DNA of 64,000 bases from Rheinheimera texasensis DSM 17496. GTDB lineage: Bacteria; Pseudomonadota; Gammaproteobacteria; Enterobacterales; Alteromonadaceae. The stretch spans positions 1 through 64,000 of the forward strand of contig NZ_KL544006.1 of NCBI RefSeq assembly GCF_000711985.1, written 5' to 3'. Every line of letters starts with the position of its first letter. Position 1 is the first letter of the stretch. The translations under genes and the position numbers were made by a program. A model generated the notes under the pieces. It made no database searches. It was not told the origin of the DNA and saw only the letters and a list, made by a program, of their open reading frames with translations. Positions 2,183 through 39,577 of the stretch are shown one piece after another.

Positions 2183-2295
2183 AGTTGTACTCCGCTACCT
2201 TGTCTGTTGATCTGTTGTGGTTTTATTGCCATTGCAAATCTGGTAGACGGCGACCATTTGCTCAATTAGCCATTAGTCGTAGCTGGGCCCTGGTC

Positions 2296-2309
2296 TAGAC
2301 TAATGTCTA
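2296..2309. promoter_or_regulatory. Candidate operator dyad upstream of acs
   Basis: TAGACTAATGTCTA is a 5-base inverted repeat around a 4-base centre, 81 bases before the acs start. Its core GACTAATGTC differs by one base from GACTAAAGTC upstream of the DUF4212/ActP-like pair and by two from GACTAGAGTC upstream of gltA. Just upstream, TTAGTCGTAGCTG (2273-2285) matches 12 of 13 bases of a minus-strand sequence at 11627-11615. A LuxR-type response regulator such as CrbR could bind here; that link is inference. Confidence 0.45.
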
Positions 2310-2390
2310 ATTTGCCCTCAAGGGCGCTTTCGGTAGAACTGCATTATCAGAGAACATCAGGCGGAAAACGCCATACGGGGAAGACGAACC

Positions 2391-4340
2391 ATGACACATC
2401 AATCTGTATATCCAGTCCCGCCAGCAGCACAGGAACGGACCTGGGTGGACAACGATACATACTTACAAATGTACCAGGCATCGCTGGACAACCCTACGGC
2501 ATTTTGGGCAGAACACGGCAAACGGATTGATTGGTTTAAGCCTTTCACTCAGGTTAAAGACACCAGCTTTGCGCTCGGTGATGTGCATGTGAACTGGTTC
2601 AGTGACGGGACCCTGAACGCCAGCTACAACTGCCTGGATCGGCATCTGCCGGAAAAAGCCAATCAAGTGGCCTATTATTGGGAAGGTGATGAGCCCGGCG
2701 TGCAAAAAGCAGTCACTTATCAGGAACTGTATGACGAGGTTTGTCAGCTGGCCAACGGTATGCGTGCTTTAGGTGTCGGTAAAGGCGACCGGGTCACTGT
2801 TTATCTGCCGATGATCCCGCAGGCCGCCGTGGCTTTGTTAGCCTGTGCGCGGATTGGTGCTATTCATTCCGTTGTTTTCGCCGGATTCTCTCCGGATGCG
2901 CTGGGCAGCCGCATTGTCGATTGTGATTCTAAGTTGGTTATCACTGCTGACCAGGCTCTGCGCGGTGCGCGGCTAACCGCACTCAAAGACAACACAGATC
3001 AGGCATTAGCGCATTTGGGCAAAGCCAACCCGGTAAAGCATGTCATTGTGGTCAAACAGGTTGGCCAGAACATTGACGAACATCCGGGCCGTGATATCTG
3101 GTATCACGAATTATTGGCCGCCCAGCCAAAACACTGCGAGCCGGAAGTAATGAATGCGGAAGACCCGCTGTTTATCCTTTACACCTCAGGCTCTACCGGT
3201 AAACCAAAAGGTGTATTACACACCACTGGCGGTTACATGGTCTGGGCATCGATGACGCATCAATATGTGTTTGATTATCACCCGGGCGACGTCTATTGGT
3301 GTGCCGCTGACGTCGGCTGGGTTACCGGTCACACATATATAGTGTATGGTCCGCTCGCCAACGGCGCGACCAGCGTGATGTTTGAAGGGGTGCCGACTTA
3401 TCCGAGCGTCAAGCGAATTGCGCAGATTGTGGATAAATATCAGGTCAACATTCTCTACACCGCACCGACCGCTATTCGTGCGCTGATGGCACATGGTACC
3501 GCACCGGTCGAAGGCAGCGCATTAACCTCACTAAAAGTACTTGGCAGCGTTGGCGAACCGATTAATCCGGAAGCCTGGCACTGGTACCATGACAATGTCG
3601 GTAAAGGCCGTTGCCCTGTCGTCGACACCTGGTGGCAAACAGAAACCGGTGGCATTCTGATCACGCCATTACCTGGCGCGACTGCTTTAAAACCAGGTTC
3701 TGCCACCCGGCCGTTTTTTGGCGTCCAGCCCGCTATCGTTGACAACGAAGGCAACTTACTTGACGGCACCTGTGAAGGTAACCTGGTACTGCTCGACAGC
3801 TGGCCGGGTCAGATGCGCTCGGTCTATGGTGACCATGAGCGGTTTGAGCAGACCTACTTCTCCACATATAAAGGCATGTATTTTACCGGTGACGGTGCCA
3901 AGCGTGATGAAGATGGTTATTACTGGCTGACCGGCCGCGTCGATGACGTATTAAACGTCTCTGGCCACCGTTTAGGCACAGCAGAAATCGAAAGTTGTCT
4001 GGTTGCGCACGAAGCGATTGCTGAAGCTGCTGTAGTTGGTTATCCGCATGACCTGAAAGGTCAGGGTATTTATGTGTTTATCGCGCCACGTGTTGGTGTC
4101 GAGCCCAGTGATGAACTGACCAAAGCGGTGCGTGATTGGGTACGCCGTGAGATTTCACCAATCGCTTCACCGGATTTAATTCAGTGGGCACCGGGTTTAC
4201 CAAAAACCCGCTCCGGCAAAATTATGCGGCGTATCTTGCGCAAAATTGCCGCCAACGAGCACGACTCTTTGGGCGATATCTCAACACTGGCAGATCCGTC
4301 AGTCGTTGAGCATCTGATCAATAACCGCCTGAATAAATAA
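2391..4340 (+). CDS. acs: Acetyl-CoA synthetase
   Basis: This 649-residue AMP-forming enzyme converts acetate, ATP and CoA to acetyl-CoA through acetyl-AMP, in the cytoplasm. It shows the P-loop-like motif [11 protein letters not shown], the hinge region around [16 protein letters not shown], and the C-terminal [11 protein letters not shown] motif. K610 there corresponds to the E. coli lysine (K609) whose acetylation inactivates the enzyme. The length matches the family (about 650). It starts after GGGGAAGA and ends in a strong terminator. The neighbouring CrbR and CrbS genes are the known two-component activators of acs in Vibrio and Pseudomonas, so acetate-switch control is likely. Confidence 0.98.
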
Positions 4341-4347
4341 GTCGATA

Positions 4348-4382
4348 AAAGACCATAAGTCTATCAAAGGCTTATGGTCTTT
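4348..4382 (+). terminator. Intrinsic terminator of acs
   Basis: AAAGACCATAAG (4348-4359) pairs perfectly with CTTATGGTCTTT (4371-4382) around an 11-base loop, eight bases after the acs stop. The A- and U-rich base allows it to work in the plus direction. Confidence 0.85.
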
Positions 4383-4453
4383 CTTCCATAGACAGATCAG
4401 TGACGGATGATTAAGCTGTGCTGTGTTGATAAAATTTTACCCGGAGATCAGCC

Positions 4454-5131
4454 ATGGCAAAACTTATAGTCGCAGACGATCATCCTCTGTTTCGCAATGC
4501 CCTCATCAGTGCTATCAGCAATATTTTTGCCACGACAGCAACGGTTGAAACCGACTGTTTTGATGCGACAGTACAAGCGCTGGAACAGCATCCTGATGCT
4601 GACTTGCTGTTACTGGATTTGCACATGCCAGGCAATTGCGGTTTTCTGGGCTTAATCCAGCTGCGCAAAACTTTCCCGACCATGCCGATTGTCGTGATCT
4701 CAGCCAGTGATGATCAGGACGTGATCCGTCGCGTGATGAATTTTGGTGCCTCCGCTTATGTGCCAAAATCAGCGCATCCGACAGAAATTGCCAATGCCTT
4801 GCACGCTGTGATGGCTGGCGAGATTTGGTTGCCTGAAAAATATCAGCACCTGTTGCGGACGAACCCGCAGCAACATGAAGACTTAGACCTCGCGGCACGC
4901 ATCGCGCAACTGACCCAACAACAATACAAAGTGTTGTATTACCTAACCGAGGGCTGGCTCAATAAACAAATCGCTTACGATTTACATATCTCTGAAGCGA
5001 CAGTCAAAGCCCATATGACCGCTATTTTCCGTAAACTCGGCGTCACCAACCGCACGCAGGTGGTGATCCAGGCGCAACGCCTGCAACTCGAAGCGCCGGT
5101 TGACCGTGATTTAGCGAGGCAACCGAGTTAA
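4454..5131 (+). CDS. crbR: LuxR/NarL-type response regulator, CrbR/ErdR-like
   Basis: This 225-residue response regulator has a receiver domain (about 1-120) with the acidic pair D8-D9, phospho-acceptor D55 (LLLLDLHMPG) and the conserved PK at VPKSA. A C-terminal LuxR helix-turn-helix follows (about 145-210; NKQIAYDLHISEATVKAHM). Its position right behind acs, with a CrbS-like kinase in the same locus, matches the CrbS/CrbR (Vibrio) and MxtR/ErdR (Pseudomonas) acetate-switch systems, in which the regulator activates acs. A CCGGAGATCAGCC ribosome site precedes the ATG. Its stop overlaps by four bases the stop of the convergent HD-GYP gene. Family assignment is firm; the CrbR name rests on context. 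Confidence 0.85.
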   Translation: MAKLIVADDHPLFRNALISAISNIFATTATVETDCFDATVQALEQHPDADLLLLDLHMPGNCGFLGLIQLRKTFPTMPIVVISASDDQDVIRRVMNFGASAYVPKSAHPTEIANALHAVMAGEIWLPEKYQHLLRTNPQQHEDLDLAARIAQLTQQQYKVLYYLTEGWLNKQIAYDLHISEATVKAHMTAIFRKLGVTNRTQVVIQAQRLQLEAPVDRDLARQPS

Positions 5132-6684
5132 TGTAAGCCCGGCAAGCTGCTATGGTCGACCTCATCAATTTGCTCGGCTGACAAAAATTGCCGGGCAAAT
5201 TCCAGATATACCTTTTTCTCGACAAAAATACGGAATAAATCGGCATCGATGTGCTGCTCTTTGGCCATAAACCCTAAAATCCGCAACGATTCTGACAGCG
5301 TCTTGGCTTTTTTATAAGGCCGATCCGACGCAGTTAAAGCTTCAAAAATATCGGCAATTGCCATAATTCGTGCCTGTACAGACATTTGCTCTTTTTTCAA
5401 TCCTCGCGGATAACCGGTGCCATCCATTTTCTCGTGATGACCGCCGGCATATTCCGGCACATTGCGCAGATGTTTCGGGAATGGCAATGATTCAAGCATT
5501 TCGATGGTGATATCGATGTGGCGGTTGATCACCCGGCGCTCCTCCGGGTTTAGGGTGCCGCGTTCCACACACAAATTGCTGACTTCGGCTGGCGTTAAAA
5601 CCGATTGTTCGACGCCGGCAATCACAATGTGGTAGCGCGCAGCAATATCGCGCACGCGCTTTTGCAACTCCCATGACATAAATTCCCCGCCGATATTACT
5701 GGCTTGCAGGAATTTCAAATCGACCCGCAGCTGGTCCAGCAAATCTTCCCGGCTGGTCTGATCAAGACTCTGGTCCAGCAGAATATCGCGCCGGGCAATT
5801 TCAAAGCGAGCCTCAACCAGCGCGATATTGTCGTGCAGGCCATGCAGTTTAGTCGCTTTGTCCATGATGTATTCTGGGGTCGCAATTTTACCGCAATCAT
5901 GCAACCAGGCCGCGACAGACAGTTCGTGCACGTCAGCTTCATTCATCGAGAAATCGGCCAGCGGTCCTTCTGTTGTTTCACTACAGGCTTGAGCCAGCAG
6001 CATAGTGATAGCCGGTACTCTTTTACAGTGACCACCGGTGTAAGGCGATTTTTCGTCAATTGCTTTGGCTAATAACCGACTTAAAGCGCCGAACAATTCC
6101 TCTAAATCATGCACTAACTGCTTATTGGTCAGCACCATGGCGGCCATCGACGATAGCGCTATGACCAGACGCTGTGTTTGGGCAGAGAATGGCTGAACTT
6201 TCCCTGAGCTGTCGAGGCAATTCACTAATTGCAGCACCCCAGTGACATCCCCCTGATGGTCAAGCAACGGCACCGTCAGCATGGATTGTGTGCGATAACC
6301 ATGTTGCTGATCAAATTGGCGGGCCCGCTCCTGATTCACCAGCGGGCTGAAGTAAACATCGTCGATGATAATTGGCTGCTTCTGCAAAGCGGCAACGGCC
6401 ACCACTGCACTGTCATTCGGTTGACCGTCTTTATAGAGTGGGATCGAATGTTGCGCCGGCTGCAGGCCGGATGTGCCCCCCTGATGCAGACCAAGACTGC
6501 GGTTAAATAAAGTGGCAAATTCGAGATGGTTGTCGCTGGTCAGCCGGTAAATTGTCCCACCGTCGGCCTGACTGATATGCTGCGCACTCTGCAGGATCTG
6601 TTCCAGTAAAACAGTCCGATCAGTTTGTCTGGCCAAAGCCAGGCCAATATTTACAAAGTGCTCTAATTGCTCAAGATTTCCCAC
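5128..6684 (-). CDS. GAF and HD-GYP domain c-di-GMP phosphodiesterase
   Basis: This 518-residue cytoplasmic protein has an N-terminal GAF sensor domain (about 10-175) and an HD-GYP domain (about 200-480). The catalytic signatures are complete: HDCGK at 262-266 and HHEKMDGTGYP at 416-426. It should therefore hydrolyse c-di-GMP, to GMP or pGpG. There are no membrane segments. It lies convergent to crbR with overlapping stop codons and is followed upstream, after a 169-base gap, by the AI-2E permease gene on the same strand. A similar HD-GYP gene beside acetate-switch genes would link carbon sensing to second-messenger levels, but that role is inferred only from position. Confidence 0.93.
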   Translation of the reverse strand: MGNLEQLEHFVNIGLALARQTDRTVLLEQILQSAQHISQADGGTIYRLTSDNHLEFATLFNRSLGLHQGGTSGLQPAQHSIPLYKDGQPNDSAVVAVAALQKQPIIIDDVYFSPLVNQERARQFDQQHGYRTQSMLTVPLLDHQGDVTGVLQLVNCLDSSGKVQPFSAQTQRLVIALSSMAAMVLTNKQLVHDLEELFGALSRLLAKAIDEKSPYTGGHCKRVPAITMLLAQACSETTEGPLADFSMNEADVHELSVAAWLHDCGKIATPEYIMDKATKLHGLHDNIALVEARFEIARRDILLDQSLDQTSREDLLDQLRVDLKFLQASNIGGEFMSWELQKRVRDIAARYHIVIAGVEQSVLTPAEVSNLCVERGTLNPEERRVINRHIDITIEMLESLPFPKHLRNVPEYAGGHHEKMDGTGYPRGLKKEQMSVQARIMAIADIFEALTASDRPYKKAKTLSESLRILGFMAKEQHIDADLFRIFVEKKVYLEFARQFLSAEQIDEVDHSSLPGLH

Positions 6685-6818
6685 TGCATTGGTCCTTGCG
6701 CTTGATCGTGAGATATGATTACCGCTGAGTATAGTCAGAGAATTTTTGGATTTGGGCAGCGAAAGGTTTAAAAATATATGGCAAAAGCAATGAGCAATGC
6801 CGGCGTAGTTTAGCTAGC

Positions 6819-6836
6819 GAGCCCGACTTCGGGCTC
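6819..6836 (-). terminator. Possible terminator of the AI-2E permease gene
   Basis: GAGCCCGA and TCGGGCTC form an 8-base stem with a two-base centre (an ACTT-like loop in practice), 18 bases past the minus-strand stop at 6854. No clear T-run follows, so it may be a weak or Rho-assisted terminator. Confidence 0.4.
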
Positions 6837-6853
6837 ACAGCTCAACTATGGGA

Positions 6854-7906: not shown

Positions 7907-7940
7907 GCAGTTCTCCTTGTCAGTACAGATGGAAGTGATT

Positions 7941-10900
7941 TCAGCTTCCGCGGCCCTGCAGTTTCAGTGAATTCAGTGCAGCGCGCAAGGCCGCCGCTTT
8001 GATAGGCTTGGGTAAAAACAACATCCCGGCCGATTTGGCGCGCTCCGGCAAGCCCGGATCAGGCGCCGCAGAAACCAGAATGCCGCGCAGTTCCGGCCAG
8101 CGCTGTTTTAACTCAACAAACAGCTGTAAGCCATCCGGTGGCTGGCCCAACTGATAATCCGCTATGACAATATCTACCGGTTGCTGCAGATGTAGTACTT
8201 TTTCGGCATCATCGAGGCACGCGACATTGCCGAGCTGCCACTGCGTTAACAGCTGCTGCAATGCGGCAAGATTGGAGTTATCATCATCGATACACAAAAT
8301 ATTGACTGCGCCTGCCACCGCCTGCGTGGGAGGCACCTGAACGTCAGTACCCGACACCTGCTGTGGCGCAGCTTCGGCAATAACCGGCACCGCCAGGCGG
8401 AAACAACTGCCTTTACCCGGCACCGAATGCACCTCCAGCGGATGCCCCAGACTGCGAGCCATCCGTTGCACCACGCCTAACCCAAGCCCGACGCCTTGCT
8501 GTCCCCGCGCTGTGGCCTGCACCCGGTAAAAGTCGGTGAAAATCTGCTGCAGGTCTTGCTCGGCAAGGCCCGGCCCGGTGTCCCACACCTCAATCCAGAC
8601 CAGATCACCACGACGGCGACAGCCCATCAGCACTTTGCCGGACTGAGTATATTTAATAGCATTGCTGAGGATATTCTGGATGATGCGGCGCAAATAAGTC
8701 GGATGACTGCTGACCTGAAAATGCCCGGCTCGAACGTGTAACTGCAGCTGTTTTTGCGCCACCAGCAACTGACTTTCATCCGCAAGTTGCAGCAACATCG
8801 CGCGTAAATCGACGGAGCTGACCGGAAACTCCAGCTTGCCTTCATCAAGCCGGGCAATATCCAGCAAGGTCGCCATCAGCTCTTCGGTGGCTTTCAGCGA
8901 ATTATCCAGCTGCCCCAACATTTGCCGGCCTTTACTGTTTAACTGCTGATCGTCCAGCGCCGCAGCGAACAAGCGGGCGGCATTGAGCGGCTGCAGAATG
9001 TCATGGCTCGCCAGTGCTAAAAAGCGCGTTTTTGATGCGTTGGCCGCCTCGGCCTCGGCTTTGGCATGCAGCAACTGTTGTTCTGTAGTGCGGCGTAGTT
9101 CCACCTCCGCCAGTAATTCGCTGTTCATCTGGCTGATTTGTGCTGTACGTTCAGACACGCGCTGTTCCAAATGTTCCTTCGCCGCCGCTAAAGCCTGTAC
9201 CGCTCTCACATGCTCGGTGATGTCGGTAAAACTGGTAACAAAACCACCGCCCGGAATCGGATTGCCGCGAATTTCGATGACTGAGCCATCCGGCCGGACA
9301 CGCTGAAACACGTGAGCGGTGCCATTTTGCAAATGGCTGATCCGCTTTGCCACGTGCTCATCGGCAGCGCCTGGCCCACACAAACCGCGTTCGGCGTTAA
9401 AACGCACTATGTCCGCCACAGCACGGCCAACCCGAATCATACCGGCCGGATAATCAAACATCTCCAGATATTTTTTATTCCAGGCAACCAGCTGTAAATC
9501 GCGGTCGACCACACTAACGCCCTGGCTTAAGTTCTCCAGCGTCGAGAACAAAATCTTGCGGGAAAACTGAATGGCTTCACGCGTGTCGTCAAACATGGTC
9601 ACGACATCTTCGAAGGCAAAGGAGCGGCCTTCCAGCACGGCTTTGACCATGGCTGCTGCGCTCGATGAGCCAATCACACCAGCCAGTTCACGCTCGACAT
9701 GGCGCAGTAACTGTACCTGTAGCACATCGTCCGTCGATGGCCGGTAACCATGGCGCTGTTCAAATTCATCCAGCGATTCACGCACCCGGTGGGCGCCGAC
9801 AAATCGCTCGAGCAAGGTCAGAATATCGGCTGAGGTGACTAAATTGCGCCTTAACAAGGTTTTGCCATCATCCGGCAACGGCAGATTGGGTTTGACAAAA
9901 GCCACAGCCTGCAAACGATCGTTTAAATCCGCCTTGTGCAGCAATGACATCAGCACATATGCAAGCGTATTGAGTCCCAAAGACCAGAACACACCATGAC
10001 TTAAAGCGTCAAGATCCAGGCCAAACAAGGCCGTCGGTTTTAACCAGCCAAGACCAAAAGCGCCTTGCTCCAGCACTATTGCCGACATCACACCGGCGCT
10101 GACCAGCTGAGGCAGCATCAGACAATAAAACCACAGCACAAAACCGACCGAGACGCCGGCATAGACGCCCCAGGCGTGGCCGCGTTTCCAGTACAGCCCA
10201 CCGATCACCGCCGGTGCCAGCTGAATGATCAGTGCAAAAGCCAAAAGACCGGTTTCAGCCAGTTCGTAATTGCGGGCAAACCAGCGGTAATAACCCCAGG
10301 ACAATGCCATCACCAACAAAATCATCAGCCGTCGCACCCGCAGGATCAACACGCTGTAGTCTCGTTGTTGCCGGTGTAGCTGCTGCCGACGCAATAAAGC
10401 CGGCATCACCACGTCGTTACTGATCATGGTGCCAAGCGCCAGCGTGGCGATAACAATCATCGAGGTTGCGGCTGAGAAACCACCAATAAATACCAAAGCG
10501 CTTAATAAATCCCAACCCTGACTGGCCGGAATTAACAGTACAAAACTGTCAGCATGTGCTAATTGTTGTGGAAATAGTTGTATACCCGCGATGGCAACCG
10601 GCACCACGACAAGAGTCACTAACAGCAAATACCAGACAAACCAGCGCCGCGCCTGATGCAGGTGCGCAGGGTCGGTGTTTTCAACAAAAGTGACATGAAA
10701 CTGTCGCGGTAATAAAAAGACCGCAGTGACCGCCAGCAGAGTTTTAGTCAGAAAACTAGTCAGGCTGAACTGAGCGGCAGCCTGGGCGTCGCTGTGTTGC
10801 TGAAATTGCTGTAACAGGTTTGCCGGCTCAGGCACCACCCAATACACTACAGCTCCCGCCAGCATCAACAATGCACCAAGTTTCACCACAGATTCAAAGG

Positions 10901-11486
10901 CAATGGCCGCCATCACACCGCGATTTTGCTCAGTCAGGTGCAATTTGCGGGTGCCGAACAGAATAGCAAAAATCGCCATAGTCACCGCGCTCCACAGCGC
11001 AGAATCCTGCCAGACGGTGGTGCTGCCCGCAGCTGGTATTCCAGCCAGTACCTGATAGGAGTTGGTCACTGCTTTGAGTTGCAGTGCGATATAAGGCACC
11101 ACCACAACCAGACACAATAATGCGGTAAGCGCCGCAATGGCCTGACGTTTGCCATAGCGGGCGCTGATAAAATCGGTCAGCGACGTGACGTTATGTTTTT
11201 TCGCGACAAACAATAGTTTGCGCAGCAAGCGATGACCAAACAGATACAGCAACACAGGTCCGAGATAAATCGGCAAATAATCCCAGCCGGAACTGACGGC
11301 TGACCCAACGGCACCATAATAGGTCCAGGAGGTGCAATACACTGCCAACGCCAGGCTATAAATCGCCCCCCCATACTTTTGTAGTAGTGGGTCATGCCGC
11401 GGCCTGTCTGCCCAGTTTGCAATTGCAAAGAGCCCACCGATGTAGGCAATTGCCATCAGAATGATCCAGCCAGCAGTCACCGCCAA
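7941..11486 (-). CDS. crbS: CrbS-like symporter-sensor hybrid histidine kinase
   Basis: This 1181-residue protein fuses a sodium/solute symporter-type membrane domain (about 1-515, roughly 13 helices) to signalling domains. These are a STAC-like linker (about 540-625), a PAS domain (about 655-770), a coiled coil, a HisKA domain with phospho-acceptor H828 in SHDILQPLNA, an ATPase domain with DTGPGL and GVGLGLGVV boxes, and a C-terminal receiver with phospho-acceptor D1110 (IADYQLG). This order is that of CrbS/MxtR, which with CrbR/ErdR controls acs and acetate use. The gene is divergent from the DUF4212/ActP-like operon. Whether the symporter part transports or only senses cannot be read from the sequence. 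Confidence 0.92.
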   Translation of the reverse strand: MAVTAGWIILMAIAYIGGLFAIANWADRPRHDPLLQKYGGAIYSLALAVYCTSWTYYGAVGSAVSSGWDYLPIYLGPVLLYLFGHRLLRKLLFVAKKHNVTSLTDFISARYGKRQAIAALTALLCLVVVVPYIALQLKAVTNSYQVLAGIPAAGSTTVWQDSALWSAVTMAIFAILFGTRKLHLTEQNRGVMAAIAFESVVKLGALLMLAGAVVYWVVPEPANLLQQFQQHSDAQAAAQFSLTSFLTKTLLAVTAVFLLPRQFHVTFVENTDPAHLHQARRWFVWYLLLVTLVVVPVAIAGIQLFPQQLAHADSFVLLIPASQGWDLLSALVFIGGFSAATSMIVIATLALGTMISNDVVMPALLRRQQLHRQQRDYSVLILRVRRLMILLVMALSWGYYRWFARNYELAETGLLAFALIIQLAPAVIGGLYWKRGHAWGVYAGVSVGFVLWFYCLMLPQLVSAGVMSAIVLEQGAFGLGWLKPTALFGLDLDALSHGVFWSLGLNTLAYVLMSLLHKADLNDRLQAVAFVKPNLPLPDDGKTLLRRNLVTSADILTLLERFVGAHRVRESLDEFEQRHGYRPSTDDVLQVQLLRHVERELAGVIGSSSAAAMVKAVLEGRSFAFEDVVTMFDDTREAIQFSRKILFSTLENLSQGVSVVDRDLQLVAWNKKYLEMFDYPAGMIRVGRAVADIVRFNAERGLCGPGAADEHVAKRISHLQNGTAHVFQRVRPDGSVIEIRGNPIPGGGFVTSFTDITEHVRAVQALAAAKEHLEQRVSERTAQISQMNSELLAEVELRRTTEQQLLHAKAEAEAANASKTRFLALASHDILQPLNAARLFAAALDDQQLNSKGRQMLGQLDNSLKATEELMATLLDIARLDEGKLEFPVSSVDLRAMLLQLADESQLLVAQKQLQLHVRAGHFQVSSHPTYLRRIIQNILSNAIKYTQSGKVLMGCRRRGDLVWIEVWDTGPGLAEQDLQQIFTDFYRVQATARGQQGVGLGLGVVQRMARSLGHPLEVHSVPGKGSCFRLAVPVIAEAAPQQVSGTDVQVPPTQAVAGAVNILCIDDDNSNLAALQQLLTQWQLGNVACLDDAEKVLHLQQPVDIVIADYQLGQPPDGLQLFVELKQRWPELRGILVSAAPDPGLPERAKSAGMLFLPKPIKAAALRAALNSLKLQGRGS

Positions 11487-11620
11487 TACCTCATTTTAAT
11501 TCAATAAGTTAGCTCGCAGCATTGCGATGACGCTGCGCGGAGTCGATGCGCCAGTCTTGGGGAATTTAACGGCGCTGTCAATGCTGAGCCAAAGCAAAAA
11601 ACCAGCGGCGTCAACAGCTT

Positions 11621-11632
11621 CGACTAAAGTCG
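11621..11632. promoter_or_regulatory. Candidate operator dyad between crbS and the DUF4212/ActP-like operon
   Basis: CGACTAAAGTCG is a perfect dyad (5-base arms, AA centre), 101 bases before the DUF4212 start in the divergent intergenic region 11487-11732. It shares 11 of 12 bases with CGACTAGAGTCG upstream of gltA. Its minus strand gives TTAGTCGAAGCTG, a 12-of-13 match to TTAGTCGTAGCTG upstream of acs. A role as a CrbR site is inferred from which genes carry it. Confidence 0.5.
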
Positions 11633-11732
11633 GGCTAGGCGTTTTGCCAGCACCGGCTATTGTGTGAAGAGCGGCAGTTGCCAGCTCACAACAGGTTATA
11701 ACAATAAACAAAACACAACGAGGAGAGACGTT

Positions 11733-11999
11733 ATGGCGTTTCAAAGCTCTGAACAAGCCAGTGCCTATTGGCGCGAAAATGTCAGTCTGATGCTGAAACT
11801 GCTGGCGATTTGGTTCGCAGTTTCATTTGGGGCCGGCATTTTATTTGTCGACGTGCTGAACGCAGTCCAGTTTTTCGGCTTTAAGCTCGGTTTCTGGTTT
11901 GCGCAACAAGGTTCAATCTACGTTTTTGTGCTGCTGATTTTCGTCTACGTGGTGAAGATGAATCAGTTAGACCAGAAATATAACGTCCACGAAGAGTAA
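11733..11999 (+). CDS. DUF4212 small subunit of a sodium/solute symporter
   Basis: This 88-residue membrane protein has two hydrophobic helices (about 22-46 and 54-76) and a short charged C-terminus. DUF4212 proteins are encoded immediately upstream of VC_2705-type symporters and are thought to be their small partner subunit. The start at 11733 is chosen over an upstream in-frame ATG because AGGAGAG lies 5 bases before it and because the family begins near SSEQASAYWRENV. The gene ends 10 bases before the symporter gene, so the two are co-transcribed. Confidence 0.9.
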   Translation: MAFQSSEQASAYWRENVSLMLKLLAIWFAVSFGAGILFVDVLNAVQFFGFKLGFWFAQQGSIYVFVLLIFVYVVKMNQLDQKYNVHEE

Positions 12000-12009: not shown

Positions 12010-13722
12010 ATGGATTTACAGACACTCACTTATATCATCGTCGGTGCGACCTTTCTGCTGTACATCGGTATTGCAGTCTGGGCCCGCGCAGGCTCTACCC
12101 ACGAATTCTATGTCGCCGGTGGTGGCGTTTCCCCATTGGCCAACGGTATGGCAACTGCAGCTGACTGGATGTCTGCTGCGTCATTTATTTCGATGGCTGG
12201 TTTGATTTCTTTTATGGGCTACGATGGTTCTGTCTACCTGATGGGCTGGACCGGTGGATATGTGCTGTTGGCACTGTGCCTCGCCCCCTACCTGCGTAAA
12301 TTCGGTAAATTTACCGTGCCGGATTTCATCGGTGACCGCTATTACTCACAAACCGCCCGTACTGTGGCCGTAGTCTGCGCCATTCTGGTCTCTTTCGTTT
12401 ACGTTGCAGGGCAAATGCGTGGTGTAGGCGTCGTATTCAGCCGCTTCCTTGAAGTGGATATTGAAACCGGCGTCGTGGTTGGTATGGCCGTGGTGTTCTT
12501 CTACGCGGTATTAGGCGGCATGAAAGGCATCACTTACACCCAGGTCGCACAATACTGCGTGTTAATTTTTGCCTATCTGGTGCCAGCAATCTTTATCTCT
12601 CTGATGATCACCGGCAATCCAATTCCACAATTTGGTTTTGGCAGCACTATTGAAGGGACTGACACTTATCTGCTCGACAAACTTGATGGGTTGTCTACTG
12701 AACTCGGTTTTGCACTGTATACCGACGGCACCAAGTCAATGATGGACGTGTTTGCCATCACTGCCGCATTGATGGTGGGTACTGCTGGTCTGCCGCACGT
12801 CATTGTACGTTTCTTCACAGTACCACGCGTCAAAGATGCACGCATCTCTGCAGGCTGGGCACTGATTTTCATCATGATCCTGTACACCACAGCACCATCA
12901 ATTGGCGCCTTCGCCCGCTACAACATGATCAATACTTTAAATGGTCCTGATCATCAGGGCACGCTGGTCAGCGAAGCACCGCAGTGGGTGAAAAACTGGG
13001 AAAAAACCGGTTTAATCAAACATGAAGACAAAAACGGTGACGGCCGGATGTTTTACTCAGGCGATGCGCGCAATGAAATGACTATTGACCGCGACATCAT
13101 GGTATTGGCTAATCCGGAAATCGCACAGTTACCAAACTGGGTGATTGCACTGGTCGCTGCCGGCGCTATCGCAGCAGCATTATCCACTGCGGCGGGTTTG
13201 TTACTGGTGATCTCGACGTCAATTTCGCATGACTTACTGAAGCGAAACCTGATGCCGAACATCTCCGATAAAATGGAATTGCGTTATGCCCGCGGCGCGG
13301 CAGCGGTTGCCATCATGGTCGCCGGCTACCTCGGTATTAACCCACCAGGCTTTGTGGCAGAAGTGGTCGCCTTCGCCTTTGGTCTGGCCGCAGCCAGCTT
13401 CTTCCCGGCGATTATCCTTGGCATTTTCTACAAGAAAATGAACAAAGAAGGGGCAGTCGCCGGTATGTTAGCAGGTATGGTATTCACCATTGGCTACATT
13501 GTGTACTTCAAAGGCATTTTCATCACGCCAATGGCTGCCAACGTACCAGCCAACTGGTTCCTGGGGATCTCGCCTGAGGGTATCGGTACCGTGGGTATGC
13601 TGGTGAACTTTATCGTCGCTTTTGCAGTGAGCAAAGTGACCAAAGAAGTGCCAGCGGAAGTACAGGATATCGTCGAGTCTATCCGTTTCCCGAAAGGGGC
13701 TGGTGCTGCATCAACGCACTAA
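12010..13722 (+). CDS. VC_2705-type sodium/solute symporter, ActP-like
   Basis: This 570-residue inner-membrane transporter of the SSS family has about 13 helices. The family signature region GGMKGITYTQVAQY is followed by GTAGLPHVIVRFFTVP, which is typical of acetate and short-chain-acid permeases such as ActP. A hydrophilic insertion (about 300-355, including KNGDGRMFYSGDARNEM) matches the longer VC_2705 subfamily rather than E. coli ActP itself. With DUF4212 it forms a two-gene operon. Acetate or a similar monocarboxylate is the likely substrate, given acs and CrbS/CrbR nearby; this is inference. An intrinsic terminator follows 31 bases after the stop. Confidence 0.9.
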   Translation: MDLQTLTYIIVGATFLLYIGIAVWARAGSTHEFYVAGGGVSPLANGMATAADWMSAASFISMAGLISFMGYDGSVYLMGWTGGYVLLALCLAPYLRKFGKFTVPDFIGDRYYSQTARTVAVVCAILVSFVYVAGQMRGVGVVFSRFLEVDIETGVVVGMAVVFFYAVLGGMKGITYTQVAQYCVLIFAYLVPAIFISLMITGNPIPQFGFGSTIEGTDTYLLDKLDGLSTELGFALYTDGTKSMMDVFAITAALMVGTAGLPHVIVRFFTVPRVKDARISAGWALIFIMILYTTAPSIGAFARYNMINTLNGPDHQGTLVSEAPQWVKNWEKTGLIKHEDKNGDGRMFYSGDARNEMTIDRDIMVLANPEIAQLPNWVIALVAAGAIAAALSTAAGLLLVISTSISHDLLKRNLMPNISDKMELRYARGAAAVAIMVAGYLGINPPGFVAEVVAFAFGLAAASFFPAIILGIFYKKMNKEGAVAGMLAGMVFTIGYIVYFKGIFITPMAANVPANWFLGISPEGIGTVGMLVNFIVAFAVSKVTKEVPAEVQDIVESIRFPKGAGAASTH

Positions 13723-13781: not shown

Positions 13782-13796
13782 ATGCAGGAGCTTGTG

Positions 13797-15602
13797 ATGC
13801 AGATTCAGGAAGTAGTGCAGTTTTTAACGCAGGTTCCCCCTTTTGCCGATTTACCGGCGGCTGATCTCACCGCCTTAAGCCAGCAGATCACGATTTATTA
13901 CGCCGTCCAGGCTGAACAACTGCCATTTGCCAATCAGTTGGTGCTGGTGCGGACCGGCTTATTTTTGATGCAACAACAGCAACAGCTTTACCCGCTGCAA
14001 AGCGGTGATTGCTGGGGTTACCGGCAGTTATTGACGCAACAGGACCAAAACGAGCAACTGCATTGCCAGGAAGACGGTCTGGTGTACTTGGTCCCACAGC
14101 CAGTGTTTGTGCAGTATCAGCAACAATTCAAAAACTTCGCCTTGTATTTCCAACGTCTGCTTGGCCGATCACTGCATTTACATCAGCAAAATGCCACAGA
14201 CAACCGCCGCGTTGGCGATTTATGCGCGCCGAAAGTCATCAGTATCCAAAGTCAGGCTACTATCCAACAAGCAGCACAATTGATGACCCAGCAACGTATC
14301 TCTTCATTGCTGGTGATGGATGCGCAACAGCTCAGCGGCATCCTGACCGACCGCGACCTGCGCAGTAAAGTACTGGCTGAGGGGAAATCGGCGTTAACCC
14401 CGGTTGCTGAGGTGATGACACGCAACCCCTATCGGATCCACGCTGACGCATTTGCCTTTGAAGCGCTGCAGCTGATGAGTCAGCATAATATCCACCACCT
14501 ACCCGTGGAGAAGGCCGGTGTGGTCTGTGGCGTGCTGACCACCAGCGATCTGGTACGCAGTACCCAGGAACACCCGCTGTTTCTGATCAGTCACATTCAT
14601 CGCCAGCACGACAGCACTGGCTTAAGTGATTGTTCCAACAAAATCCTTGAGCTGACGCGCCAGCTCGGCCAGCAACAATTGCCGTCCACCGAAATCAGTC
14701 AGATTTTAAGTACTTTGTACGATGCGCTGGCGCAAAGCTGGCTGAAGCTGGCACAGCAACATTTAGGCCCGGCTCCCTGCGCTTTCAGCTGGTTGTGTTT
14801 TGGCTCGCAGGCGCGTCAGGATATGCTGTTAAGTGCCGATCAGGACAATGCATTGCTGCTGGAAAAAGAACCGGTTGGCGAGATCGCACGATATTTCAGT
14901 GCCCTCGCCCGTTTTGTCTGCGATGGCCTGGCGAGTTCCGGCCAGATGTTATGTCCGGGCCATGTGATGGCAACCAACGAAAAATTACGCCTGAGTCTGG
15001 CTGGGTGGTCGGCGCGTTTTGCAGGCATGATCCAGACCCCAACGCCACAGGCGCTGCTCGACAGCAGTATCTATTTTGATGCCCGCGTCGTCGCCGGCAG
15101 TCAGGCGCTTTTTAGTGCATTACAGTCGGACATTCTGAGCGCCAGTCATCAACAGCTGTTTATCTGGCAGCTGGCGAAAAATGCCCTGTCGCATCAACCG
15201 CCGCTGGGCTTTTTTAAACACTTTATTCTGGAACAAGACGGCGCCAAGCGGCGCGGTCTGGATTTAAAAAAACGCGGGATTGCCCTTATTCATGATTTGG
15301 TGCGGGTGCATGCGCTGGCACATGGTGTTAACGCAGTCAGCACACCGGCGCGGCTCTCGGCGCTGGTCAGTCACCAGGTGCTGACGGACAGCCAGGCGCG
15401 TGACCTGATCGCGGCTTTTGAACTGCTGCACCAGCTGCGCTGGCAACTGCAATATGCTGCATTACAGCAAGGCGGCAGTTTCAGTAATCTGCAGGACCCG
15501 GCCGAGCTTAATGTGTTACAGCGCCATCAACTGAAAGATGCCTTTGCGGTAATTAGTCAGCATCAGCAAATTGTGGCGCAGCGATACTGCCGGGAGCTTT
15601 AG
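13797..15602 (+). CDS. Cyclic-nucleotide-binding/CBS/DUF294 nucleotidyltransferase-like protein
   Basis: This protein of about 601 residues has an N-terminal cNMP-binding-like domain (about 5-125), two CBS domains (about 145-265), a DUF294 nucleotidyltransferase-like domain with GSQARQDMLLSADQDNAL (near 340, the GS...D-x-D pattern), and a DUF294 C-terminal helical domain. Such proteins commonly sit beside acetate permeases and DnaQ-like exonucleases and are presumed signal-responsive uridylyltransferase-like regulators. The start at 13797 is preferred over the ATG at 13782: AGGAG at 13785 fits it with a 7-base spacer, and the earlier ATG abuts the terminator T-run. It lies two bases before the exonuclease gene. 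No substrate is known. Confidence 0.88.
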   Translation: MQIQEVVQFLTQVPPFADLPAADLTALSQQITIYYAVQAEQLPFANQLVLVRTGLFLMQQQQQLYPLQSGDCWGYRQLLTQQDQNEQLHCQEDGLVYLVPQPVFVQYQQQFKNFALYFQRLLGRSLHLHQQNATDNRRVGDLCAPKVISIQSQATIQQAAQLMTQQRISSLLVMDAQQLSGILTDRDLRSKVLAEGKSALTPVAEVMTRNPYRIHADAFAFEALQLMSQHNIHHLPVEKAGVVCGVLTTSDLVRSTQEHPLFLISHIHRQHDSTGLSDCSNKILELTRQLGQQQLPSTEISQILSTLYDALAQSWLKLAQQHLGPAPCAFSWLCFGSQARQDMLLSADQDNALLLEKEPVGEIARYFSALARFVCDGLASSGQMLCPGHVMATNEKLRLSLAGWSARFAGMIQTPTPQALLDSSIYFDARVVAGSQALFSALQSDILSASHQQLFIWQLAKNALSHQPPLGFFKHFILEQDGAKRRGLDLKKRGIALIHDLVRVHALAHGVNAVSTPARLSALVSHQVLTDSQARDLIAAFELLHQLRWQLQYAALQQGGSFSNLQDPAELNVLQRHQLKDAFAVISQHQQIVAQRYCREL

Positions 15603-15604
15603 CG

Positions 15605-32904: not shown

Positions 32905-32928
32905 GTCAGCACAGAACCCTGCGCTGAC
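32905..32928 (-). other. Second hairpin in the sucA-sucB spacer
   Basis: On the minus strand GTCAGCGCAG and CTGTGCTGAC pair over ten positions (one G-U) around a GGTT loop, followed by TTTGGTTTTCC. It lies directly downstream of the first terminator-like hairpin and 53 bases before the sucB start. It may be a backup terminator, a processing site or a 5' stabiliser for sucBCD. Confidence 0.6.
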
Positions 32929-32930
32929 CC

Positions 32931-32963
32931 AAAAAAAATTGACCCGCAACCGAAGCTGCGGGT
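32931..32963 (-). terminator. Terminator-like hairpin between sucA and sucB
   Basis: On the minus strand ACCCGCA-GCTTCGGT-TGCGGGT is followed by CAA and then eight T (32938-32931), starting seven bases after the sucA stop. This has the form of an intrinsic terminator inside what is normally one operon, so it should reduce read-through from sucA into sucBCD. The three bases between stem and T-run weaken it slightly. Confidence 0.7.
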
Positions 32964-32969
32964 GATGTT

Positions 32970-35774: not shown

Positions 35775-35874
35775 TTACGTTCCCTTATCTCGAAGCACCT
35801 GGAAAAAGTAGCAAAAAAATAATCAGGTTACAGGCTTTATGACTATTTTTTCCTGGGCACAGCCAGTCGCCAAA

Positions 35875-35920
35875 GCGGGCTGTATTTTATACTCACAGAA
35901 ACAGCCCGCAAGCGGGCTGT
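35875..35920 (-). terminator. Three-segment alternative-pairing element after sdhB
   Basis: Two copies of GCGGGCTGT (35875-35883 and 35912-35920) flank one ACAGCCCGC (35901-35909). On the minus-strand transcript the first two segments form a nine-pair hairpin closed by a two-base TT turn and followed by TTTCTG. The middle segment could instead pair with the distal copy. The two structures exclude each other. It lies 69 bases past the sdhB stop and 91 before the sucA start. It may terminate sdh transcripts in part. Confidence 0.55.
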
Positions 35921-35988
35921 TGGTATATTTTCAGCTTTTCCGTCAATTTGCTGAAAAATACAGCAAATGCCGGATAACAGACGGGCGC

Positions 35989-36708
35989 TTACAGCGCCCG
36001 GTTTAACAGCATAGACTTGATCTGACCGATAGCTTTGGTCGGATTCAGGCCTTTTGGACATACGTTGACACAGTTCATGATGCCGTGGCAGCGGAATACG
36101 CTGAATGCATCGTCCAGGTCGTTCAGACGCTGCTCAGTCGCGGTATCACGACTGTCCGCCAGGAAACGGTAAGCGTGCAACAGACCGGCCGGGCCGATGA
36201 ACTTGTCCGGGTTCCACCAGAACGACGGGCATGACGTTGAACAACAAGCACACAGAATGCACTCGTACAGGCCGTCCAGCTTTTCGCGTTGTTCAGGCGA
36301 CTGCAGGTATTCACCGGCAGGCGGCAGATCGTCGTTGATCAGGTACGGCTTCACTTTTTCGTACTGGGTGTAGAACTGTGACATGTCGACGACTAAGTCA
36401 CGCACCACCGGCAGACCCGGTAAAGGACGGATCACCAGCTTGCCACCTTTGCCTTTGCCTAAGGCAGACAATGGCGTGATACAAGCCAGCCCGTTTTTAC
36501 CATTCATGTTCAGACCGTCTGAACCGCAAACACCTTCACGGCAGCTGCGACGGAACGATAAGGTTGGGTCTTGCTCTTTTAATTTCAACAGCGCGTCCAA
36601 CACCATCATGTCGCGGCCTTCCGGATTGTCCAGAACATAGTCCTGCATCCGTGGCGCGGTATCGACGTCCGGGTTGTAGCGGTAGATAGAGAATTCTAAC
36701 TTCTTCAT
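35989..36708 (-). CDS. sdhB: Succinate dehydrogenase iron-sulfur subunit
   Basis: This 239-residue peripheral subunit of complex II carries electrons from FAD to quinone. The [2Fe-2S] cysteines lie in [22 protein letters not shown], split here as C-REGV-C, then C and a later C. The [4Fe-4S] and [3Fe-4S] ligands are in [16 protein letters not shown] and [11 protein letters not shown]. The length matches E. coli (238). It is 12 bases downstream of sdhA in the sdhCDAB order. Confidence 0.99.
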
Positions 36709-36720
36709 TCTGTATCCCTC

Positions 36721-38493
36721 TTAGTAAGTACGGGCTTTAGGAGGGAAAGCCGGACGGAATTTTGTTTCCATATTCACTTTCCGCTTAAACATAGACTCAG
36801 TCTCCGGCGAGTAGACGCTGTGGCATAACCAGTTTTCATCGTCACGGTCCGGGAAGTCAAAGCGAGCGTGGGCACCACGGCTCTCGGTTCTGTAGTTGGC
36901 AGCAACTGCAGTCGAGAATGCGGTTTCCATCAGGTTGTCCAGTTCCAGACATTCGATACGTTGAGTGTTGAACTCAGCGCTCTTGTCGTCCAGACGGGCA
37001 TACTTCAGCCGCTCACGGATCACTTTTAACTGTTCTAAGCCTTCAGCCATCGCCGCACCTTCACGGAATACCGAGAAGTTCAGCTGCATGCATTGCTGCA
37101 GGTCTTTTTTGATTTGCACTGGGTCTTCACCCTGACCTGGTTTCGAGCTTTCCCACCGGTTAAAACGGGATAACGATGCTTCCAGATCAGAATCAGACGC
37201 CTGACGATACTCAGCAGTGGCAGCCAGGGCTTCACCCAGATGCAGGCCGGTTGCGCGGCCAAATACAACTAAGTCTAACAATGAGTTACCGCCTAAGCGG
37301 TTCGCGCCGTGTACAGATACACAAGCGATTTCACCACAGGCAAATAAGCCCGGGATCACTTCTTCGCGACCATCAGCAGTCGGACGTAACGCCTGACCGT
37401 GGACGTTGGTTGGCACGCCACCCATCATGTAGTGACAGGTAGGAATAACCGGAATAGGTTCTTTCACCGGATCAACGTGCGCGAAGGTGCGCGACAGTTC
37501 ACAGATGCCTGGTAAGCGGCTTTCCAGCACTTCTTCACCGAGGTGGTCCAATTTCAGCTTGATGTGCGGGCCCCACGGACCATCACAGCCACGGCCTTCG
37601 CGGATTTCCGTCATCATTGAACGGGCAACGACGTCACGACCGGCTAAATCTTTGGCGTTAGGTGCATAACGTTCCATGAAACGTTCACCGTCTTTATTCA
37701 GCAGGTAACCGCCTTCGCCACGACAGCCTTCTGTAACCAGTACACCGGCACCGGCGATACCGGTTGGGTGGAACTGCCACATTTCCATATCTTGCATTGG
37801 CACGCCAGCACGCAGCGCCATACCAACACCGTCACCGGTATTGATGTGGGCATTAGTCGTAGATGCGAAAATACGGCCGGCGCCACCAGTGGCTAATACT
37901 ACAGCGCGTGATTTGAAGTAGACCACTTCGCCGCTTTCGATATCAATCGCGGTACAACCCACCACTGCACCGTCCTGGTTTTTCACCAGATCCAGCGCAT
38001 ACCACTCAGAGAAAACCTGAGTTTTGTTTTTGACGTTTTGCTGATACAGCAGGTGCAATAAAGCGTGACCGGTACGGTCGGCAGCAGCTGCAGTACGGGC
38101 GGCTTGCTCGCCACCGAAATTCTTCGACTGACCACCAAACGGACGCTGATAAACACGGCCATTCTCAAAACGTGAGAATGGTAAACCCATGTTTTCCAGC
38201 TCTGTAATGGCTTCAGGGCCGGTTTTACACATGTATTCAATCGCGTCCTGGTCACCGATATAGTCGGAACCTTTGACGGTATCAAACATGTGCCATTCCC
38301 AGTTGTCCGGGTGTGAGTTCCCCAGCGCTACTGTGATACCGCCCTGAGCAGATACAGTGTGCGAACGGGTTGGGAACACTTTGGATAATAAAGCACAGGT
38401 CAGGCCTGATTCAGTGATTTGCAGAGCGGCGCGCATACCGGCACCACCAGCGCCGATCACCACGGCATCAAATTCGCGAACTGGAATATTCAA
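36721..38493 (-). CDS. sdhA: Succinate dehydrogenase flavoprotein subunit
   Basis: This 590-residue catalytic subunit oxidises succinate to fumarate. The FAD-binding [11 protein letters not shown] motif is near residue 14, and the histidine for covalent FAD attachment is in SHTVSAQGG (near 45). The active-site region [15 protein letters not shown] and the C-terminal RGAHARFD stretch are present. The length matches E. coli (588). It follows sdhD with no gap (adjacent codons at 38493/38494). Confidence 0.99.
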
Positions 38494-38841
38494 TTAAGCA
38501 CCCCACATAACAAACAGGCCAACAGCCACATAACCAAATGCCAGCGTGTACAGAAAGAATTGCAGCACAGCGCGGGTACGGGCGCATTTGACATAGTCGG
38601 TCAGCACCTGCCACAGACCAATTTTGGTGTGAACTGCGATACAAACCAGCGCCAGTAAGGTGAATGCTTTGACTAACAGATTAGAAAACAATGCTTTCCA
38701 GACATCGTAAGTCACTTCAGGCGTGATCAGGAAAAAGCCAAGAATAAATAACGTGTATAACGTCAGGATAATCGCGGTTGCGCGCAGAGACACATAATCC
38801 TGCACACCATCACGCTTTAAAGATGCTTGATTCAGAACCAT
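38494..38841 (-). CDS. sdhD: Succinate dehydrogenase membrane anchor subunit D
   Basis: This 115-residue subunit has three membrane helices (about 16-37, 48-69 and 84-108) and with SdhC holds haem b and the quinone site. The start at 38841 (MVLNQASLKRDGVQDYV) is chosen because this is the family N-terminus. It lies ten bases inside the end of sdhC, so the two are translationally coupled. A longer ORF to 38877 adds 12 residues read from within sdhC and is not supported. Confidence 0.95.
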   Translation of the reverse strand: MVLNQASLKRDGVQDYVSLRATAIILTLYTLFILGFFLITPEVTYDVWKALFSNLLVKAFTLLALVCIAVHTKIGLWQVLTDYVKCARTRAVLQFFLYTLAFGYVAVGLFVMWGA

Positions 38842-39209
38842 AACCAGACTCCAGCTAATACTGCAACAACCAGCCACAGGCCAATGGCCGCTTTGGCACT
38901 GGCGTTGCCAGACTCTAATTCTTCCCAGTGACCCATATCCATGATCAGGTGACGAATACCGCCGATGATATGGTAAGACAACACTGTCAGCGTGCCCCAG
39001 GCGATGAATTTAGCGATGAATGATGTCATCACTTCTTTCACAGTGGCAAAACCTTCAGGTGAAGATAAAGAAACGGCCCAAGCCCAAATCACAAACACCA
39101 GTGCGAAGAACATGGCAACGCCGGTGACACGATGCAGGATGGAGGCTTTCGCCGTAGGAGGCATGGATATAGTGGTTAGATCGAGATTTACAGGTCTTTG
39201 CTTTTTCAC
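38832..39209 (-). CDS. sdhC: Succinate dehydrogenase cytochrome b556 subunit C
   Basis: This three-helix membrane subunit has about 125 residues and opens with the family motif KKQRPVNLDL. SILHRVTG and SYHIIGGIRHLIMD carry the quinone- and haem-site residues, including the haem histidine. I place the start at the GTG at 39209, which makes the length match E. coli (129). It also agrees with a possible promoter (TTGACT-16-TAATGA at 39275-39248) whose transcript would begin inside the longer ORF. Starts at ATG 39251 or GTG 39278 would add 14 or 23 residues. None of the candidates has a strong ribosome site. Confidence 0.9.
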   Translation of the reverse strand: MKKQRPVNLDLTTISMPPTAKASILHRVTGVAMFFALVFVIWAWAVSLSSPEGFATVKEVMTSFIAKFIAWGTLTVLSYHIIGGIRHLIMDMGHWEELESGNASAKAAIGLWLVVAVLAGVWLWF

Positions 39210-39247
39210 AGTTTCTTGCCCATGAACGCCCTTTGCGGGCTTTGTTG

Positions 39248-39275
39248 TCATTATCGTTGCTGCATAAACAGTCAA
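39248..39275 (-). promoter_or_regulatory. Possible proximal sdhC promoter
   Basis: On the minus strand TTGACT (39275-39270) and TAATGA (39253-39248) are 16 bases apart. If used, transcription would start near 39241, leaving a leader of about 30 bases before the GTG at 39209. Confidence 0.4.
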
Positions 39276-39361
39276 CACCCAACGGATATACTGGCCTTCA
39301 CCCTAAGTGGTTCAGCCTTTTATTTTTCTATCTATCGGTGAACTGATTTCGAACCCGCGAC

Positions 39362-39390
39362 AGTATATATTTCACAACCCCGGATTACAA
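39362..39390 (-). promoter_or_regulatory. Candidate main promoter of sdhCDAB
   Basis: On the minus strand TTGTAA (39390-39385) and TATACT (39367-39362) are separated by exactly 17 bases, inside the divergent sdhC-gltA region. This is the best sigma-70-type match there for the sdh direction. Confidence 0.55.
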
Positions 39391-39458
39391 TTTATGTTTC
39401 TTTTTACTGAAGAAATTCTGCGGCCACTACATTAACGGTTCGCGCGCTGAACACAATA

Positions 39459-39470
39459 CGACTAGAGTCG
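39459..39470. promoter_or_regulatory. Candidate operator dyad upstream of gltA
   Basis: CGACTAGAGTCG has perfect 5-base arms around AG, 107 bases before the gltA start and inside the sdhC-gltA divergent region. It differs by one base from CGACTAAAGTCG upstream of the DUF4212/ActP-like operon. A weak plus-strand promoter (TTGACT with TAGAAT 19 bases on, about 39498-39528) lies downstream of it. The rest of the 368-base gap shows no gene. Confidence 0.5.
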
Positions 39471-39577
39471 AATACTTATTAACCGCCAGCGCATTAAAAT
39501 TGACTTTGGTGCCCTAGTTACGGGTAGAATAAGAATTCGCAGCAGATTTAAACCAATAACAACACAGGAGAAATCCA

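Follow-up and report, generated by a model that had tools for sequence, protein, structure and literature searches.

In a 64,000-nucleotide stretch of Rheinheimera texasensis DSM 17496 (contig NZ_KL544006.1; hereafter the window, the whole stretch of DNA that was analysed, from a 4.59-Mb genome in 12 contigs), closely related dyads stand upstream of acs, which encodes acetate-CoA ligase, of an operon for a DUF4212 subunit and an ActP-like symporter, and of gltA, which encodes citrate synthase. We propose that these dyads are ACTU boxes, the published operators of the response regulator CrbR, and that phosphorylated CrbR would activate acs, the symporter operon, gltA and a DcaP-type porin gene divergent from acs; we give this reading a probability of roughly 0.78. 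It is built on the sites themselves, on how well they agree with the published motif and how widely they are conserved, and on a recognition helix that the window CrbR shares with its Pseudomonas counterparts; from these we infer binding and activation by CrbR. The identity of the operator is already known and is not new; what would be new is the membership of gltA and the DcaP porin gene in the regulon of a system whose kind is already known. The four sites in the window are as follows, with scores from the second matrix described below and counts among the genomes of the genus (G000 to G021, of which G018 holds gltA fragments only, hence 21 readable gltA starts):

2295..2311, plus strand: ACTU 17-mer CTAGACTAATGTCTAAT, towards acs; score 21.4, with acs promoters in the training set; 22 of 22 genus genomes
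2265..2281, minus strand: ACTU-like TACGACTAATGGCTAAT, the second site of this promoter, in reverse orientation and facing the DcaP porin gene; score 18.5; 21 of 22 genus genomes
11619..11635, plus strand: ACTU site TTCGACTAAAGTCGGGC between crbS and the DUF4212/symporter operon; score 10.2 on the plus strand and 14.3 on the minus strand, shifted by one base
39457..39473, plus strand: ACTU 17-mer TACGACTAGAGTCGAAT before gltA; score 17.5; 21 of 21 readable genus genomes

ACTU was described by Sepulveda and Lupas (2017; PMC5715377; here and below, PMC numbers stand for the portions of each article that were available) as a 17-bp imperfect inverted repeat at -52 to -36 of the acs start of Pseudomonas fluorescens. 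In a set of 31 gammaproteobacteria, 91 of 112 homologs of acs, actP, pflu0110 and pflu5625 have it upstream. Induction of acs in P. fluorescens is lost when the motif carries four point mutations, and in Escherichia coli CrbR activates the acs promoter solely when the motif is intact (PMC5715377). The published targets are acs, actP with pflu1813, pflu0110 and pflu5625, with isocitrate dehydrogenase and fumarase as weak predictions, and neither gltA nor citrate synthase occurs in the available text of PMC5715377. In P. putida, ErdR shifts the scpC, PP_0354 and actP-I promoters, but the acsA-I promoter, where the motif is missing, is not shifted (Henriquez and Jung 2021; PMC8402216). The window sites closely resemble published ones such as TACGACTAAAGTCTAAA and CTAGACTTACGTCCAAT. 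A first matrix, made from the six sites of Table 4 of PMC5715377, four of them from experimentally shown genes, has a maximum of 21.9 and gives 14.5 for the acs site, 14.3 for the reversed acs site, 17.8 for gltA and 11.3 for DUF4212. For the second, left-out matrix the training set comprised 54 distinct sites, drawn from acs, DUF4212 and the published list with none from gltA; promoters with a best first-pass score below 9 were dropped, and the pool offered for training included the acs and DUF4212 promoters of the window itself. It gives 21.4, 18.5, 17.5 and 14.3 for the same four sites, and ranks the gltA site third of 127,968 window positions, behind the two sites of the acs promoter. By both matrices the window sites are 17-bp inverted repeats of the published kind. 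The sequence-only reading had suggested that the dyad may be a CrbR operator, which agrees with the motif that acs induction requires (PMC5715377); it had missed the reversed second copy at 2265-2281 and the fact that the motif was already published.

That reading had been framed on a shorter core, GACTANNGTC. The core occurs exactly three times in the window (2298-2307, 11622-11631 and 39460-39469), each time in the promoter region that had been named (the gene families of acs, the DUF4212/symporter operon and gltA being identified by profile), and the distances of 84-109 bases to the start codons are correct when measured from the end of the dyad. The claimed extension to CGACTNNAGTCG is present at the actP-type and gltA sites, while the acs site extends to TAGACTAATGTCTA instead. 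Chance had been put at about two hits per window; we compute 0.61, with at least three hits in 6 of 100 shuffles. Many matches in coding sequence had been named as the finding that would speak against the dyad, and the bare core has them: it matches 65 times in its own genome, and of the 30 matches returned as loci, 25 fall within open reading frames (ORFs) and 5 between genes, as placed by a heuristic ORF caller. Because there are 65 matches genome-wide, most of those examined lying in reading frames, the bare GACTANNGTC is nonspecific and was rejected as the signal. The signal resides in the 17-bp extension and its conservation, not in the 8-base core. In its own genome, WAHKACYWNNGTCKAAW matches without mismatch at the gltA site alone. 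The ACTU-like pattern MGACYWNNGTCKAA has 70 matches in nine genus genomes, 27 of which are the acs, DUF4212 and gltA sites, each matched in all nine; in G011 these three are its sole matches. With no mismatch allowed, YNMGACYWNNGTCKAAT finds only the acs and gltA sites in G013 and G015, and one more, within an ORF, in G000.

The extension of the regulon to gltA, already suggested by the sequence-only reading, holds in orthologous promoters. The gltA box was found in all 21 genus genomes with a readable gltA start. In a second, Shewanella-like genus (G040 and 24 others), it scores at least 12 in 22 of 25 genomes; G066 scores 9.8, and the box is absent from G060 and G077 among the 25 scanned. 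Permuted matrices give low mean counts, as detailed below. In gapless alignments anchored on the box, 15 of 17 box columns are invariant in 19 genus genomes vs 4 of the 20 columns just upstream (G004 and G013, which carry an insertion, were dropped), and in 23 Shewanella-like genomes the figures are 9 of 17 vs 0 of 20 (genomes scoring below 9 were dropped). Conservation falls off immediately upstream of the box in both genera. It is not limited to the box, because the downstream block, which holds the promoter, is also conserved. Likewise, the TTCGACTAAAGTCGGGC site does not vary among the 21 genus genomes that have a DUF4212 match.

The cognate regulator and sensor are both encoded, CrbR in all 22 genus genomes and CrbS as examined within the window. 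A LuxR-type CrbR had been placed in this locus, and crbR indeed lies at 4454-5131, directly after acs; in all 22 genus genomes, with CrbR at E <= 1e-100, it stands beside acs on the same contig. The recognition helix of the window protein is ISEATVKAHMTAIFRKLGVTNRTQ. In the sole matches of P. fluorescens PfAR1 (L401) and P. brassicacearum (L400), which were taken as CrbR, the helix reads VSEATIKAHVTAIFRKL.VRTRTQ, and SEAT[VI]KAH.TAIFRKL is common to the CrbR of the genus and these two counterparts. The window CrbR carries the recognition helix of Pseudomonas CrbR in this comparison, which used PfAR1 and not the SBW25 strain of the published work. The helix is also close to those of Vibrio mytili, Shewanella, Pseudoalteromonas and one Colwellia copy; its first positions vary in some counterparts of other genera (AEATVKAH, TEATVKAH). 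NCBIfam NF041830 (ErdR) is the best match to the protein at 198.1 bits, under the curated cutoff of 390, and we name it CrbR-type, not ErdR.

The boxes are followed at near-constant distance by hexamers that may serve as -10 elements:

2334..2339, plus strand: candidate -10 TAGAAC, 22 nucleotides (nt) past the acs box; same gap in 20 of 22 genus genomes, 16 of the genomes having been aligned here
11658..11663, plus strand: candidate -10 TATTGT, 22 nt past the DUF4212 box; TAGATT in 18 of 21 genomes
39495..39500, plus strand: candidate -10 TAAAAT (P1), 21 nt past the gltA box; same hexamer and gap in 19 of 21 genus genomes
39500..39530, plus strand: alternative gltA promoter P2, with TTGACT, a 19-nt spacer and TAGAAT; both hexamers conserved in a 15-genome alignment, spacing unusual

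These hexamers, 21-22 nt past the boxes, appear to fit the published position of ACTU just upstream of the promoter. The exceptions at acs are TAGAAA in G006 and a one-base shift in G007; at the DUF4212 box, all 21 genomes have TAGATT or TATTGT 22 nt further on; and the remaining two genomes at gltA, G004 and G013, carry a 22-bp insertion between the box and P1. An unsupervised search for the best TATAAT-like hexamer at gltA returned a gap of 21 in 11 of 13 distinct genus promoters. The gltA promoter in use may be either P1, with the box 21 nt before TAAAAT as at P. fluorescens acs, or P2, with the box further upstream; transcripts would be expected to begin near 39507 from P1 and near 39537 from P2. 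In the Shewanella-like genus the likely -35 element is placed differently relative to the gltA box. As a side observation, the 22-bp insertion in G013 (L037) and G004 (L038) corresponds to about two helical turns and leaves both the box and the core promoter intact, which makes these two loci a natural experiment on spacing.

We surveyed gltA in other taxa, counting a box where the left-out matrix scored at least 12 within 500 bp upstream. The named groups cover 79 of 80 named loci (Nitrospirillum was omitted); the other families of the order comprised 24 genomes, with G040 tallied apart, four without a gltA match and five with a match not included. A box stands upstream of gltA in all three named Rheinheimera/Arsukibacterium/Alkalimonas loci, in 6 of 6 from Pseudoalteromonas, in 12 of 13 from named Colwellia/Thalassotalea/Litorilituus, in 3 of 7 from other named Alteromonadales, in 6 of 14 from other genera of the family and in 2 of 14 from other families of the order. 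The count is 1 of 30 for Pseudomonas/Stutzerimonas (one locus labelled Pantoea), 0 of 5 for Aeromonas plus Enterobacterales, and 0 of 78 for gltA coding DNA, used as a control with two loci with shifted starts omitted. With sixty column-permuted matrices, the mean count ran from 0.03 to 0.78 across the upstream groups and was 1.35 for the coding control. Among the 29 loci at 12 or above that belong neither to the two genera nor to the named Rheinheimera group, 25 have their better-scoring box facing away from gltA. SdhC is divergently encoded on the side that the box faces in 24 of 25 loci with sufficient flanks, the exception being a short contig (L054, L058, L060, L063-L067, L069, L070, L072-L078, L080, L090-L092, L106 and L390-L392; one scores 10.4). 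In the genus of G032, TATAGT or TATACT lies 21 nt beyond the sdhC-facing box in 4 of 4 genomes. A separate observation concerns the Pseudomonas gltA loci (among L112-L140): at about -102, a degenerate ACTU-like CAAGACTTTAGGCAAAT stands 21 nt before TATAGT and overlaps the -35 element, a layout found in 9 of 9 distinct promoters scoring at least 9, among 19 of the 30 Pseudomonas/Stutzerimonas loci.

According to the mechanism that we propose, CrbS would be activated on acetate and CrbR would become phosphorylated. The phosphorylated dimer would bind ACTU boxes upstream of weak sigma-70 promoters and recruit RNA polymerase. In this genus, the genes switched on would be the DcaP-type porin gene, the DUF4212/symporter operon and acs, to which we here propose to add gltA, so that acetate uptake, activation and entry into the tricarboxylic acid (TCA) cycle would rise together. 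Citrate synthase commits acetyl-CoA to the TCA cycle. If true, the gltA operator would explain how the carbon activated by Acs is drawn off, and, if it acts directly, CrbS/CrbR would regulate the entire route from the outer membrane to the TCA cycle in many aquatic bacteria. In the literature consulted, CrbS/CrbR is known for acetate uptake and activation.

Several observations weigh against this proposal. None of 15 Vibrionaceae loci has a box upstream of gltA at score 12; because Vibrio has CrbR according to the literature and yet lacks these boxes, the link to gltA is lineage-specific. The available text of PMC5715377 names four proteins of the P. fluorescens proteome as CrbS-dependent, and GltA is not one of them. 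The genus genomes are mutually related and not independent, and individual permuted matrices hit as many as 12 related sequences in either large genus group and 19 in the coding control, since relatives are counted jointly. The search patterns WAHKACYWNNGTCKAAW, MGACYWNNGTCKAA and YNMGACYWNNGTCKAAT were composed after the sites were known, and the patterns are rarer than their reversed controls (core, 65 vs 400 in the own genome; MGACYWNNGTCKAA, 70 vs 299 in nine genomes; and, at one mismatch, 22 vs 73 in G000). In addition, the unsupervised -10 search gave no common gap at acs or DUF4212 among the genus promoters.

Among the alternatives, a short palindrome matched by chance at all three dyads is hardly credible: the shuffle result and the coding-sequence matches of the 8-base core suit that idea, but the full 17-mer is conserved in orthologous promoters across species and genera. 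A real gltA box might instead be read by another regulator, such as a paralogous NarL/LuxR-type response regulator, PdhR or PsrA, which we consider unlikely. The genome does encode two further CrbR-like regulators at E <= 1e-40 (G000:C6), but these read ETTVKQHVSAILRKL and ETTVKAHVSAVLAKL where CrbR reads EATVKAHMTAIFRKL, and their helices, VQETTVKQHVSAILRKL and IAETTVKAHVSAVLAKL, are unlike that of CrbR. gltA and sdh are reported to belong to the PsrA and PdhR regulons of Shewanellaceae (PMC5343134). In the Shewanella-like genus, the segment past the gltA box resembles a PsrA palindrome, and therefore more than one regulator may act there. Against these readers, the sdhC-gltA interval of the window holds no PdhR-like site at up to two mismatches and no PsrA-like site at up to three, and both were rejected for the window gltA site at these thresholds. 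The conserved letters, judged by eye, are those of the ACTU palindrome even in Shewanella-like genomes without the right half of a PdhR-like overlap.

CrbR might also bind between gltA and sdhC and mainly affect sdhC, or repress, or merely bend the DNA. The box is nearly palindromic, and in other Alteromonadales its best-scoring orientation is mostly towards the divergent sdhC, with the hexamer described for the genus of G032 on that side. In the genus of the window, however, all 21 genomes have the higher-scoring orientation towards gltA, whose start is about 120-140 bp away, the conserved P1 hexamer lies on the gltA side, and the sequence on the sdhC side is little conserved; we regard such an action here as very unlikely. 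Activation of gltA by CrbR is the reading that we prefer for this genus. More broadly, and tentatively, CrbR might directly govern the gltA-sdhC crossroads across Alteromonadales, acting on gltA in Rheinheimera- and Shewanella-like genera and perhaps on sdh in Alteromonas-, Colwellia- and Pseudoalteromonas-like genera, where the box in this intergenic region points the opposite way. If this is true, the arm of the TCA cycle that is coupled to acetate would change whenever a single operator is flipped or moved. Under the main proposal, the regulon would differ between Vibrionaceae and Alteromonadales while the recognition helix stays much alike, a clear case of its sort.

Like the window, the CrbS-CrbR (MxtR/ErdR) regulon of P. 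fluorescens SBW25 has the 17-bp repeat before acs and before a DUF4212/actP operon, and its regulator pair is of the same type (PMC5715377). Unlike in that regulon, the box here also stands before gltA, and a reversed copy faces the DcaP porin gene. AcsR of Vibrio vulnificus and CrbR of Vibrio cholerae (PMC5436829) exert the same type of control on acs, whereas all 15 Vibrionaceae loci differ from Alteromonadales in lacking the gltA box. The terms sought for an AcsR footprint in V. vulnificus, as an independent site, do not occur in the available part of PMC4409781. The PdhR and PsrA regulons of Shewanellaceae (PMC5343134) likewise draw TCA-entry genes into a carbon-source regulon, but with other regulators and palindromes other than ACTU, of which the gltA-sdhC region of the window has none at the thresholds used. 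RpuS/RpuR of Sinorhizobium fredii (PMC9100948) has an SLC5/STAC sensor kinase, a type to which the window CrbS may belong, and its regulator activates a monocarboxylate symporter; the RpuR box is an imperfect direct repeat before mctP, in contrast to the inverted repeat of ACTU. In the open-licence literature searched, in the parts available, no proposal of CrbR control of gltA or a porin gene was found; this includes PMC13330470, PMC13157583, PMC9765439, PMC5436829, PMC12997753 and PMC9927547, which yielded no link of CrbR to either gene.

The genes of the window that carry or adjoin the boxes are:

983..2182, minus strand: DcaP-type outer-membrane porin gene (PF19577, 74.5 bits), divergent from acs
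2391..4340, plus strand: acs, acetate-CoA ligase (TIGR02188, 988.8 bits)
4454..5131, plus strand: crbR, NarL/LuxR-type response regulator (Response_reg and GerE), with a recognition helix resembling Pseudomonas counterparts
7941..11486, minus strand: crbS, hybrid sensor kinase whose N-terminal half is hydrophobic and transporter-like (PAS, HisKA, HATPase_c, REC)
11733..11999, plus strand: DUF4212 subunit of the symporter operon (PF13937, 122.6 bits)
12010..13722, plus strand: VC_2705-family sodium/solute symporter, ActP-like (TIGR03648, 874.8 bits)
13782..15602, plus strand: CBS/DUF294 nucleotidyltransferase protein, probably Pflu5625-like by its architecture
38832..39278, minus strand: sdhC (PF01127), divergent from gltA; start uncertain
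39578..40867, plus strand: gltA, citrate synthase (PF00285, 475.9 bits)

The window GltA shares 90% identity with the protein of Rheinheimera sp. EpRS3 and 89% with its Arsukibacterium sp. MJ3 counterpart. The N-terminal half of CrbS, residues 1-516, has 13 hydrophobic segments, some of them overlapping, and no SSF/SLC5 Pfam match at 0.001. The CBS/DUF294 gene lies within the symporter operon, as Table 3 of PMC5715377 marks for some other species. The porin gene adjoins acs in 21 of 22 genus genomes by tblastn, in G018 as a short piece only. The acs contig of G004 stops 559 bases ahead of the gene, and in this genome no tblastn match to the porin and no reversed box in the acs promoter were found, the latter among 22 genus genomes checked. 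The porin may be the outer-membrane entry served by CrbR, with DcaP as a presumed route for acetate. Between acs and crbR lies a hairpin at 4348-4382, with 12-bp arms AAAGACCATAAG and CTTATGGTCTTT and an 11-base loop; the terminator scan, which admits loops up to 8, did not list it. It may act as a terminator or attenuator and so restrict read-through into crbR, and because it separates the two genes we do not claim that acs and crbR are co-transcribed.

Further candidate targets turned up in the genus, with genes named by eye. At L210, an ACTU-like TACGACCTTGGTCTGAA (1501-1517) lies 79 bp upstream of a chemoreceptor gene for which the other 21 genus genomes gave no match at E <= 1e-60; a chemoreceptor gene is also among the top predictions in P. 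fluorescens (PMC5715377). At L211, the ACTU-like pattern matches at a gene for an AlsT-like symporter. The adk product recycles the AMP that Acs makes; an ACTU-like CACGACCTTAGTCGAAT stands about 227 bp before adk in 2 of 9 genomes, at L319 (G008) and L333 (G014). Lastly, in 4 of 9 genus genomes (L318, L329, L298 and L332) a palindrome, CTTAGACTTAAGTCGAAG, lies about 53-66 bp before a gene for a small membrane protein of 131-137 amino acids.

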